64,000 nt of DNA, taken from positions 62,001 through 126,000 of the forward strand of contig JAPLKI010000010.1 in assembly GCA_026388155.1 (NCBI GenBank), given 5' to 3'. This DNA comes from Elusimicrobiota bacterium. GTDB lineage: Bacteria > Elusimicrobiota > Elusimicrobia > Elusimicrobiales > UBA9959. A program made the translations under genes and the position numbers. A model generated the notes under the pieces. It searched no databases. It was not told where the DNA came from and saw only the letters and a list, made by a program, of their open reading frames with translations. The number at the start of each line of letters is the position of its first letter. Positions within the stretch are counted from its first letter, which is position 1. This document shows positions 54,183 through 59,378 of the stretch, one piece after another.

Positions 54183-54881
54183 ATGTTTAAATTTTTAAGT
54201 TTGCTGGTTCTGTCAGTCTGTCTGCTATACGGCTGCGTGTTTTATTGGCCGGGTATTTTTTTTAACAGCCGGCTTGAGCACGGAAGTTATACTATGGTTT
54301 CCCGGTCCCCGGCACCTGTCTCGGCGGAGAGCTTTATGGAAACCGCTCTCTCTAAACTTAAAAATTCACCGTTGTCCGCCGAAGGACAGAAATTTGAGGT
54401 TTACGTCGCGGCAACAGCGGGGCAGTACGCCTTTTTCGCCCCTTTCTGCCGCAAGGACTTTGCCTGCCTGCATCCTTTTAAGGACATAATATTCATGGCG
54501 CCCGCGGATTTTGAAAAAGGCCTGGTGGCTTCGCCTCTGGATCCTAAAAACACGTTCGCTCTTGAAAAGCTGCTGGCGCGCGAAGCGGTTATGCTGCAGA
54601 TGAGATGGAAAATGGGGTCGCTTACCTACGCCATGGCGGGCGACTGGAAAAAAGACGGCTACTCCGAGCATGTGATTTCTTTGGACGACAATACGCACCA
54701 TCCGGAGGATATCTGTCAGGGCGACGCCGCAAGCGATCCTGATCGCGCTCCCTACCTTTACCGCCTGGTAGTGGAATACATGATGGACGAAGATAAGCTG
54801 GGTTTAGACGAAGTCCTTTTTAAAGACCGTGATCCGGCGCCGGTTATAAAAATACTCAAAGATCGTCATTGTGCTAAGTAG
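54183..54881 (+). CDS. Lipoprotein of unknown function
   Basis: 232 residues. Signal peptide with lipobox-like LLYGC (cysteine 18). ATG 54183 follows GGAGGGAG. The mature part contains cysteines in PFCRKDFACLHPFKDI and in QGDAASDPDR's neighbourhood. No family recognised. TATAAT at 54099-54104 upstream may be its -10 box. Confidence 0.65.
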   Translation: MFKFLSLLVLSVCLLYGCVFYWPGIFFNSRLEHGSYTMVSRSPAPVSAESFMETALSKLKNSPLSAEGQKFEVYVAATAGQYAFFAPFCRKDFACLHPFKDIIFMAPADFEKGLVASPLDPKNTFALEKLLAREAVMLQMRWKMGSLTYAMAGDWKKDGYSEHVISLDDNTHHPEDICQGDAASDPDRAPYLYRLVVEYMMDEDKLGLDEVLFKDRDPAPVIKILKDRHCAK

Positions 54882-54939
54882 TGTAGTGCGTCCGACGCTT
54901 ATTTACATTCGCCTGCCTGCCGGCAGCTGTACCATTGCC

Positions 54940-55196
54940 CATTGCGCCGTAAATCTCTTGATGTGCGTATCCCGTTAGGATGCATTGTTGCCAGTCCAAT
55001 AACCAGGCCGTGGCTGTTTATGGCCGGAGGCCTTTCAGACACACCTCCCCTCCTTCAGAGAATTGCCATTGCGGGCGGTTTTAGCCTTTAGCCGCAAGCG
55101 AAGCGTGGCGGGAAGCAATCTCGTAGTATAAACGACGGGATTGCCATGGGCAACCATCTCCCTCGCAATGGCTCATTGCGCCGTAAATCTCTTGAT
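54940..55196. repeat. 23-base direct repeats around a 211-base palindromic element
   Basis: CATTGCGCCGTAAATCTCTT-GAT occurs at 54940-54962 and again at 55174-55196, where it codes for the end of the prenyltransferase gene. Between them lies a palindromic stretch, CCATTGCGGG (55066-55075) versus CTCGCAATGG (55162-55171), with GAAGCAATCTCGT and GGGATTGCC. This motif resembles dispersed CATTGCGAG...GCAATCTC repeats I recall in many bacteria. Confidence 0.75.
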
Positions 55197-56090
55197 TATG
55201 AGAGCGATAATAAAAAGCAGGCTGAAGGCGGAATGCAGCTGCGCGGTCATGGCGTCTATTGAAGCAAAATCCTTTTCGCCGGCGGCTTCTTTGTTCTTCA
55301 CTGTTTTTATCAGCTTTACCGCCAGCGGCAGTGAGAGAAAAGTTATAAGTGAAAGCCAGGTAAGCCCCGCGAATATCACGAACAGAAGAGTAGTTGTGTA
55401 GGCGGCGGCTAAAAGAAAGTAATACATTCTTTTTGCGCCTGTATCTTTCAGTATTATCGCCACGGTTTTTATGCCGGTCACGCTGTCGGTCTTTATATCG
55501 CGCAAATTATTGCTGTGCACTATGGCGGCAACTATGAGTGCCACCGGGAAAGAGTAGAAGAACGGCTTCCACGAATATGCGCCCGCCTGCGTGAAATACG
55601 CCCCCAGCGTCATTAGAGGACCGAAGGCCAGAAAAACGGCTATCTCGCTGAGGGCGTGGTATTTTATCACGAACGGCGGGGTGGTGTAGAAAAATCCGAG
55701 GAAAGCCCCGAAAAGCACCAGCCAGACGAGCGCGGTTCCGTTCGGGAGTGTCGCCATCAGATAAAGCCCCGCCGCGGCGGCGATAGAAAATCCGGCCGCC
55801 GGTACAAGAAGCAGCTGCTTTGGCGTAAGCAGATTCTCTACCAGCACGCCGCTTGAGCCGTAGGTGCCGGGCCTGTCAACGCCTTTTTTGTAGTCAAAAT
55901 AGTCCGAAAACGCGTTCGCGCCCGCGTGCGTGGCGACGCAGCCGGTGAGCGTAAGGAAAAAACAAGTCCAATTAAATGAAAGTCCGGTGTTTTCATTCAA
56001 GGCTATTATGCTTCCCAAAACAGGGGGAACAATGCTGACCGTGAACGACCACGGTCTGGTGGCCCGCAACCAGATTTTGATGTTTTTCAT
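55173..56090 (-). CDS. menA: UbiA-family prenyltransferase (MenA-like)
   Basis: 305 residues from the ATG at 56090; a start at 56126 adds 12 residues. About nine membrane segments. The two Asp-rich motifs are in NAFSDYFDYKKGVDRPG and NNLRDIKTDSVTGIKT, pattern of 1,4-dihydroxy-2-naphthoate polyprenyltransferase in menaquinone synthesis; other UbiA activities are possible. The stop codon is created at the edge of an inserted element (see 54940-55196). TATAAT lies 7 bases before the ATG and no SD is seen. Confidence 0.85.
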   Translation of the reverse strand: MKNIKIWLRATRPWSFTVSIVPPVLGSIIALNENTGLSFNWTCFFLTLTGCVATHAGANAFSDYFDYKKGVDRPGTYGSSGVLVENLLTPKQLLLVPAAGFSIAAAAGLYLMATLPNGTALVWLVLFGAFLGFFYTTPPFVIKYHALSEIAVFLAFGPLMTLGAYFTQAGAYSWKPFFYSFPVALIVAAIVHSNNLRDIKTDSVTGIKTVAIILKDTGAKRMYYFLLAAAYTTTLLFVIFAGLTWLSLITFLSLPLAVKLIKTVKNKEAAGEKDFASIDAMTAQLHSAFSLLFIIALIIKRFTAQ

Positions 56091-56326: not shown

Positions 56327-56486
56327 AGTGGATAATTTTGTACCATAATAATACGGGGTTCTTTTATCTTCATTACACTACTTTACCTTGAGTACGCTAG
56401 CCGTTTTTTATGATAGGGTGAACTATTTCTCATGTCATTATGGCGTTTGCTTTTCAAAAGAAAATATAAATAAAGGAGTTTTTATT

Positions 56487-57557
56487 ATGAAAAAAATTAT
56501 ACTTTCACTTCTTCCGTTATGTATTTTCTTCACAATTTCCTGTAGTAATAGTGATAAGCCGTTAAACCGGTTTTCTGTTATACAAAATGGAAAATATGGA
56601 TATATCGACAATGAAGGGACAATTGTAATTGCCCCGCAATTTGATCAAGTAAGTGATTTTAAAGAGGGTTTGGCATTAGTAAAAAATGGCGACAAGTGGG
56701 GCTATATAGATAAAACCGGAAAATATGTAATCAACCCGCAATTTGATGTCGCCCAGGATTTTAGCGAAGACTTGGCAGTAATAGCGATTGGATGCAAGAT
56801 GGTTGGGCAACCGGGCCCAGCAATGAAGATTGGTTGCAAGTGGGGTTACATAGATAGGACTGGCAAATACGCAATTAATCCGCAATTTGATTACGCGCAG
56901 GAATTTAGCGAAGGTTTGGCAAGCGTAAATATTGGGGGAATTGGGGGAGAGGACACATATATTGCGCTAGTTGGTTTTGGTCAATTTGGCGGCAGGTGGG
57001 GCTATATAGATAAAACTGGAAAATATATGATCAACCCGCAATTTGATCAGGCGAGTGATTTTAGAGAGGGCTTGGCAGTCGCAAAAAGTGACAGTAAATC
57101 TGGTTATATTGATAAAACCGGAAAATATGTAATAACCCTTGAACATGCTGGTGTTTTTAAAGATGGCTTGGCAGTAGTCTTTCAAGTAACAACTGAAACC
57201 TTCGGCTATATTGATAAAACCGGAAAATATATAATCAACCCGCAATTTGATCGGGCGAGGGCTTTTAGTGAAGGCTTGGCGGTAGTAAGAATTGGCGGCA
57301 AGTGGGGTTATATAGATAAAACTGGGAAATATGTAATCAACCCGCAATTTGACGATGCGCTTGATTTCAGTGAGGGCTTGGCACTAGTAAAAATTGGCAG
57401 CGGGTGGGGCTACATAAATAAGACTGGCAAATACGCATTCACCTCGCGATTTGAAAGTGCTCAGGGTTTTAAAGAGGGCTTGGCACTAGTAAAAATTGGC
57501 AGCGGGTGGGGCTACCTAGATAAGACCGGGAAACTTATTTGGATTTCCCGAAACTGA
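56487..57557 (+). CDS. WG-repeat lipoprotein
   Basis: 356 residues from ATG 56487 (AAAGGAG upstream). Signal peptide with lipobox ending in C21 (FFTISC). About eight to nine tandem WG repeats of 35-45 residues, pattern WGYIDKTGKYVINPQFD then FSEGLAVV, likely a beta-type surface-exposed structure. Codons and base composition are AT-rich, unlike the window around it. Function of WG repeats is not established; a role in binding is assumed. Confidence 0.9.
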   Translation: MKKIILSLLPLCIFFTISCSNSDKPLNRFSVIQNGKYGYIDNEGTIVIAPQFDQVSDFKEGLALVKNGDKWGYIDKTGKYVINPQFDVAQDFSEDLAVIAIGCKMVGQPGPAMKIGCKWGYIDRTGKYAINPQFDYAQEFSEGLASVNIGGIGGEDTYIALVGFGQFGGRWGYIDKTGKYMINPQFDQASDFREGLAVAKSDSKSGYIDKTGKYVITLEHAGVFKDGLAVVFQVTTETFGYIDKTGKYIINPQFDRARAFSEGLAVVRIGGKWGYIDKTGKYVINPQFDDALDFSEGLALVKIGSGWGYINKTGKYAFTSRFESAQGFKEGLALVKIGSGWGYLDKTGKLIWISRN

Positions 57558-59371: not shown

Positions 59372-59378
59372 AAATTTT

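Follow-up and report, generated by a model that had tools for sequence, protein, structure and literature searches.

How did the last seven codons of a menA-like gene come to stand twice within a few hundred bases, with palindromic DNA between the two copies? In the window (the whole stretch of 64 kb analysed here, from an Elusimicrobiota genome of 3.36 Mb), the 23-mer CATTGCGCCGTAAATCTCTTGAT occurs exactly at 54940-54962 and at 55174-55196, with a start-to-start spacing of 234 bases, and on the minus strand the inner copy encodes the last seven residues of MenA (I K R F T A Q) plus the TG of the TGA stop. With up to three mismatches allowed, no third copy was found in the window, where none is expected by chance, nor elsewhere in the genome, nor in two genomes of the same genus (G001 and G002). 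Read in the menA frame, the outer copy gives WAMVQLPAGRRM and then TAA, which agrees with an earlier sequence-only reading that had this frame run on for 12 more residues; the two copies, the duplicated codons and a palindromic CATTGCG...CGCAATG unit between them (about 55065-55172) likewise stand as that reading described them. Exact CATTGCG patterns show no excess over shuffles in the window, and the region 54800-55300 has no Rfam match at E ≤ 1. Integration linked to a tRNA was considered and set aside, the sole tRNA of the window lying far off at 59378. The features of the locus are the following.

54183-54881, plus strand: convergent gene, 232 aa, no Pfam family, with its TAG stop at 54879-54881
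54879-54909, plus strand: left terminal inverted repeat TAGTGTAGTGCGTCCGACGCTTATTTACATT, probably of an IS630-type MITE, with an exact 14-mer at 54879
54907-54937, minus strand: 31-nt stretch 90% identical to a gene segment of G008, a weak match (E about 4e-5, over one genome)
54940-54962, no strand assigned: copy A (outer) of the 23-mer, internal to the insertion
55012-55073, plus strand: spacer module, 75% over 64 columns against a complete element of G002 (L053)
55065-55121, plus strand: first putative decayed CGTC-type REP hairpin, with an ATTGC...GCAAT stem, a long loop insert and the tag TGCC, not T/CGTC
55138-55172, minus strand: second putative decayed CGTC-type REP hairpin, opposite in orientation to the first, with the tag AGCC
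55173-56090, minus strand: menA-like UbiA prenyltransferase gene (Pfam UbiA), its C-terminus changed by the insertion
55174-55196, no strand assigned: inner copy (B) of the 23-mer, in the expected place of the right terminal repeat

The junction in related genomes

The closest MenA relatives are those of G001 (86%) and G002 (77%), followed by G014, G022 and G027 (49-53%), and the convergent gene is present in G000, G001 and G002. The genome of G001, a member of the same genus, has no element at this site; its MenA ends ...IIALASQL*, shorter than in the window, and about 20 bases lie between the menA stop and the convergent gene. The sequence-only reading had supposed that the insertion shortened MenA from a form with a WAMVQL tail, had suggested comparing menA ends and empty sites among relatives, and had named a relative with a short C-terminus and no element as the outcome that would speak against it. 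G001 is such a relative, with a C-terminus even shorter than the one held to be truncated, and the WAMVQL-coding bases, which had been taken as ancestral, fall within the insertion, whose terminal repeat starts beyond them at 54879.

Along menA, the window agrees with G001 and G002 at 25 of the 30 bases before the 23-mer and at 6 of the 23 bases within it. Since homology to both relatives ends at the edge of the 23-mer, the inner copy looks acquired rather than ancestral. G002 has a different MenA tail and another repeat at the same menA/convergent-gene junction, so that this joint appears to have been struck twice in one genus; the menA 3' joint of G002 (L018) carries a GTGTCTGC...GCAGACAC hairpin and inverted GATTACAC ends. 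At 56388-57557 the window holds an ORF built of repeats such as WGYIDKTGKYVINPQFD, which we take to be of the WG-repeat type.

A probable one-ended MITE remnant

The TAG stop of the convergent gene doubles as the first three bases of the left terminal repeat, and from 54881 on 28 of 29 bases match a copy in G007 (L120). The earlier claim that mobile DNA was inserted at the 3' end of menA holds, and this repeat at 54879 places the edge of the insertion beyond the outer 23-mer. Only the left end is exact in the window, and a search for a right terminal repeat near menA gave a best match with 6 mismatches, the level of shuffled sequence. We read the window element as a one-ended remnant of an IS630-type MITE. 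Its left end is like those of IS630-family MITEs: these are bounded by terminal inverted repeats, most copies are flanked by C|TA|G, and at L107 a DDE_3 transposase ORF, which presumably marks the IS630 family, terminates at such a repeat. The window element differs from them in its single end and in the REP pair that it carries.

Six complete elements with both ends span 129-357 bases, and the preceding base is C in five of the six and the following base G in five of the six, which is consistent with insertion into a TA target at CTAG. The left end in the window is at the TA of TAG, and G001 has CTAG at the matching stop codon. Two complete elements of G002 (L053 and L091) start with C/TAGTGTAGTGAGTCAG and end with the inverse, with small changes. 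The core of the insertion resembles repeats elsewhere in the same genome and in G002; in L053, the spacer matching 55012-55073 sits between the terminal repeat and the REP pair. The G008 segment similar to 54907-54937 translates as NGTAAGRQAN, which we take to be an OmpA-like motif, and the similarity stops just before the outer 23-mer; this stretch is perhaps a captured gene fragment.

The genome of the window also holds a complete 357-base IS630-type MITE with both ends and without a long ORF (L104 and L005, at C13:40146-40502) and a one-ended copy (L113, at C25:270863). In G007 the terminal repeat is found in about 20 places among the matches listed (for example L133-L146), and many contigs end some 105 bases away, as though the assembly had broken at identical copies.

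A putative decayed REP pair in the core

A covariance model (R1) was built from an alignment of 36 of 40 REPs around other GIY-YIG genes, four near-duplicates being omitted. Its best match in the window is 55138-55172 on the minus strand (23.2 bits, E 3.8e-4 over the whole 64 kb) and its second best is 55065-55121 on the plus strand (11.1 bits), which by itself is not significant over the window (E 0.91, compared with 0.0054 over the region). The two matches are inverted and 16 bases apart, that is, arranged as a head-to-head dimer, with ATTGC/GCAAT stems and, by R1, ATC tails, the match at 55065-55121 being weak; their tags read TGCC and AGCC in place of CGTC, TGTC or CCTC. Because both tags are decayed, we call these hairpins decayed relatives, not members, of the CGTC REPs, and the core of the insertion appears to be a decayed head-to-head pair of CGTC-type REP hairpins.

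The basal stem in the R1 alignment is constant through selection and the inner stem is unselected; the inner stem covaries, with 50 cells changed on both sides and 0 of 500 shuffles equally high. The CATTGCGAG REPs have a 5-bp basal stem and a covarying inner stem; in the A1 alignment and in the G150 matches their outer stem is fixed and the inner stem varies freely with compensatory changes, as if only the hairpin shape mattered there.

No close relative of the REP nuclease described below was found in the window's own genome at E ≤ 1e-10. Three other GIY-YIG proteins are encoded (L342, L343 and the UvrC-like L344): L343 and L344 have no REP flanks (inverted-repeat scores 19 and 21), and the repeat scan gave no GTCAT-type pair at L342. 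Since no REP-flanked nuclease was found in this genome, the REP pair of the window is a relic.

GIY-YIG genes between inverted REPs

At two loci, L047 (G002) and L125 (G006), a GIY-YIG ORF (PF01541) lies between two REPs, and in L047 an ORF-less REP pair stands beside the pair that contains the ORF. Relatives of the L125 protein occur in 58 of 198 Elusimicrobiota genomes; two scans of viral contigs gave no relatives of the nuclease. We examined 90 of the 95 matches (30 + 60), the five weakest being left out; five loci missed by the first ORF pattern (L248, L250, L251, L253 and L259) are included in the later counts. At 82 loci the ORF has 150 or more bases on either side; there the inverted-repeat score across the ORF has a median of 32 and reaches at least 30 in 43, compared with a median of 16 and 0 of 77 for far flanks at the same loci. 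About half of the loci fall below the threshold, the arms being short or decayed in some and no repeat being seen in others. When the seven most distant homologues were omitted, upstream flanks matched the downstream flanks of their own locus (median 33.5) better than those of other loci (median 18), with 0 of 10000 permutations as high.

Strict inward hairpins (6-bp exact stem) stand on both sides at 21 of 76 loci, as against 0 of 71 far flanks, and the seven distant GIY-YIG homologues have none. This strict count misses the CATTGCGAG type with its 5-bp basal stem; a pattern search found that type on both sides in 15 of 25 distinct early loci (17 of 27 rows with two duplicates) and in 3 of 49 control flanks. 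Around several genes, among them L286, L291, L302 and those of Azospirillum lipoferum and rhizobia, the repeats have all the marks of CGTC REPs: the tag, a stem of 6 bp or more starting with AT, a short loop, a CCA or CTA tail and an inverted pair. Single-domain GIY-YIG genes are thus associated with inverted CGTC REPs.

Matching of nuclease type and REP type

A gene usually has the same REP on its two sides, REPs vary from gene to gene, and the residues that follow the catalytic EK.[IL]K motif vary along with them:

GSR-type nuclease: CATTGCGAG REP
WHRDWK-type nuclease: CATCCTGAAC REP
KWNR/KWKR-type nuclease: CATTCCCG REP
NRGR-type nuclease: CATTCTGCG REP

Protein identity correlates with REP similarity (rho 0.31; 0 of 2000 permutations). 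Within one genome, a shared REP is mostly found among the closest paralogues: among 42 same-genome pairs, seven reach a REP score of at least 34, six of them at a protein identity of at least 0.65 and the seventh at 0.58, and one pair at 0.69 has no shared REP. Genome-wide, CATTGCGAG REPs occur in 16 of 17 genomes with a GSR-type nuclease and in 38 of 181 others (p 2e-9), or in 22 of 41 when the comparison is with genomes that hold other types only (p 0.0024); for CATTCCCG REPs the figures are 14 of 14 where a KW-type nuclease occurs, compared with 53 of 184 others (p 1e-7) or with 28 of 44 that hold other types only (p 0.005). These p values are a guide, given the relatedness of the genomes and the post hoc definition of the GSR and KW groups, which followed a view of the flanking repeats; the genome-wide REP counts are new data. 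Cross tests of each nuclease type against the other REP are flat (p 0.70 and 0.67), and reversed REP patterns number 0 in all listed genomes.

The nuclease protein

Matches to PF01541 score 52.4 and 52.7 bits, above the curated cut-off of 22.6. In an alignment of 68 proteins, Y20, G22, H34, E67, K68, K71, K78 and N86 are among the invariant residues and Y9 and R30 are nearly so, a set that we take to fit the catalytic residues of the GIY-YIG family. An AlphaFold2 model (pLDDT 94.6) has as best matches among solved structures UPF0213 (1zg2), Slx1 and UvrC, and in this predicted structure helices 60-72 and 75-85 enclose the variable turn. The REP nuclease has in common with UPF0213, Slx1 and the UvrC N-domain the PF01541 domain, the fold and the Y/G/R/H/E positions; it differs from them in standing alone, in its size of about 96 aa, in a turn after the catalytic helix that follows the REP type, and in its link with REPs. 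Going by the title of structure 6sei, Slx1 processes branched DNA, so that cleavage of hairpin or cruciform DNA by the REP nuclease is a reasonable guess from analogy.

Named organisms outside Elusimicrobiota

A search of a plasmid collection with the L309 ORF gave 34 records, and 16 of the 34 were analysed. Some records are so large that they are probably chromosomes entered as plasmids. The replicons of Neisseria gonorrhoeae (2.17 Mb) and Aeromonas caviae (4.94 Mb) look chromosomal. The inverted-repeat score is at least 36 in 12 of the 16 named replicons, as against 14-23 in far controls; the 12 belong to N. gonorrhoeae, A. lipoferum, two Sinorhizobium, two Shinella, Rhizobium CIAT894, Neorhizobium, Novosphingobium, Sphingobium, Planktothrix and Spirosoma. 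The inverted pair was not found at the loci of Photobacterium, Aeromonas, Rhizobium tumorigenes and Sphingomonas, though the Aeromonas locus has CGTC REPs nearby. In N. gonorrhoeae intact hairpins (CGTCATTCCCGC..GCGGGAAT) stand downstream and the upstream arm is decayed; we liken them to dRS3 on what we take to be the dRS3 sequence.

In A. lipoferum, REP pairs flank a GIY-YIG gene between sufB and sufC, and there is no such insert between these genes in A. ramasamyi (96.6% over the matched part), A. oryzae, A. sp. B510, A. argentinense and A. thermophilum. At this site the exact joints cannot be fixed and no target duplication is resolved. Shinella gave no usable second case of an empty site, with a match of about 80% and too much divergence at the joint.

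Discussion

The history of the locus and the spread of CGTC REPs by GIY-YIG nucleases can be brought into a joint explanation that we consider probable. At the locus, a non-autonomous IS630-type MITE with a head-to-head REP pair would have entered the TA of the convergent gene's TAG, with the stop preserved; the menA-side end of the MITE, together with the old C-terminal codons of MenA, would later have been lost; and the break would have been sealed with 23 bases copied from the interior of the element, which would now specify the last seven residues of MenA. The left terminal repeat is present and its right partner missing, a REP pair lies in the core, one relative is empty at this site, and homology breaks off at the 23-mer; the order of events and the direction of copying we infer. 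On the model drawn from the sequence-only reading, 54963-55173 would have been inserted into menA with a 23-base target-site duplication, the ancestral MenA ending ...IKRFTAQWAMVQLPAGRRM. Most of the palindromic material is indeed flanked by two exact 23-base copies, but both the outer copy and the WAMVQL tail fall within the larger element with its terminal repeat at 54879, G001 has a short tail without any element, and the 23-mer is missing from both relatives, homology to which stops at its edge. With the insert running beyond the outer copy and the relatives holding none, the 23 bases are no ordinary target-site duplication, and we find the model hardly credible; the earlier remark that 23 bases are long for transposition was sound, and the "template switching" mentioned with it is still the best term. 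One may also imagine the copying reversed, with IKRFTAQ as this lineage's native MenA tail and with copy A templated from menA during repair. Some other MenA tails do end in basic residues (GKIFR in L020, GKIAG in L021), and the length of host sequence up to the convergent gene would fit, but the fall in identity from the bases just before the 23-mer to those within it, seen in both same-genus relatives, makes this reversal unlikely.

For the class as a whole, CGTC REPs would be the ends, or the ORF-less derivatives, of small elements whose only gene encodes a GIY-YIG nuclease with a single domain and about 96 residues. This enzyme would recognise its own REP hairpin via the turn that follows its catalytic EK.[IL]K helix and cut at or near the tag, and repair copying would then spread the REP pair with the gene included or not. 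This proposal builds on the inverted REPs around the genes, the match of nuclease and REP types, the intact catalytic residues and the presence or absence of the insert at one site, and on these grounds recognition, cleavage and mobilisation by the nuclease may be suspected. The genes could in principle be chance passengers of REP-rich intergenic DNA, functionally unlinked to it, for REPs are abundant in some Elusimicrobiota genomes (up to 383) and the CATTGCGAG REP occurs in 16 of 140 genomes with no GIY-YIG match; against this stand the empty far-flank controls (0 of 77), the seven distant GIY-YIG homologues without REPs, the occurrence of one REP type to either side of a gene and the matching of types within single genomes, which together leave the idea very improbable. 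GIY-YIG enzymes are known homing endonucleases, and it is tempting to think of the gene as a free-standing one that targets REP pairs moved by something else, all the more as the ORF-less pair in L047 adjoins the pair that holds the ORF. The spread of the REPs themselves would stay unexplained by homing, however, and a gene can sit between whole REP pairs rather than inside one, as it does in A. lipoferum; we regard homing as possible but rather doubtful.

Di Nocera et al. (2013, PMC3733652) describe CGTC-tagged REPs, including Neisseria dRS3 and Rickettsia RPE-4 and RPE-6, as having a C/TGTC tag, an AT-starting stem, a short loop and a CCA-like tail and as occurring mostly in head-to-head pairs between convergent genes, and report no association with a transposase. 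The REPs around GIY-YIG genes fit this description in tag, stem, tail and head-to-head pairing; they differ in the cognate GIY-YIG gene between the pair, and the window copies differ in being tagless. A further likeness is to the "REPtrons" of GTAG REPs with RAYT (TnpA_REP), in which, as here, a small gene lies within inverted REPs and the types of REP and enzyme are matched. In REPtrons, however, the gene between the REPs encodes an HUH tyrosine transposase, whereas here it encodes a PF01541 nuclease and the repeats bear the tag CGTC rather than GTAG. Among the papers listed by searches of the open full texts in PMC, none gave a link between GIY-YIG genes and CGTC REPs, as judged by titles, the beginnings of abstracts and selected passages; in PMC9465073 GIY-YIG and RAYT appear as separate pangenome genes only, and PMC12306157 does not mention GIY-YIG.

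The locus alone is of modest interest, as a case of decaying mobile DNA replacing the end of a conserved membrane protein; a cognate nuclease of CGTC REPs, which are widespread among bacterial genomes, addresses a stated open point. If every REP type has a nuclease of its own, about 96 residues in size, the missing mobility enzyme of these REPs would become testable at the bench, and many orphan annotations as "GIY-YIG nuclease family protein" would gain an explanation. The natural pairs of nuclease and hairpin may vary in specificity in one short turn. We lean, if only somewhat, towards the wider view that CGTC REPs across bacterial phyla, Neisseria dRS3 included, form one mobile superfamily using a miniature hairpin-specific GIY-YIG nuclease with its specificity in the turn after the catalytic helix; the RAYT/REP system would then have a counterpart independent of HUH enzymes, from which the many ORF-less REPs would descend as non-autonomous forms.

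Among the replicons with an inverted pair, plasmid p1 of Planktothrix agardhii (L332) has its REP-flanked GIY-YIG gene between genes annotated as an MmeI-type restriction enzyme and as DISARM DrmA.
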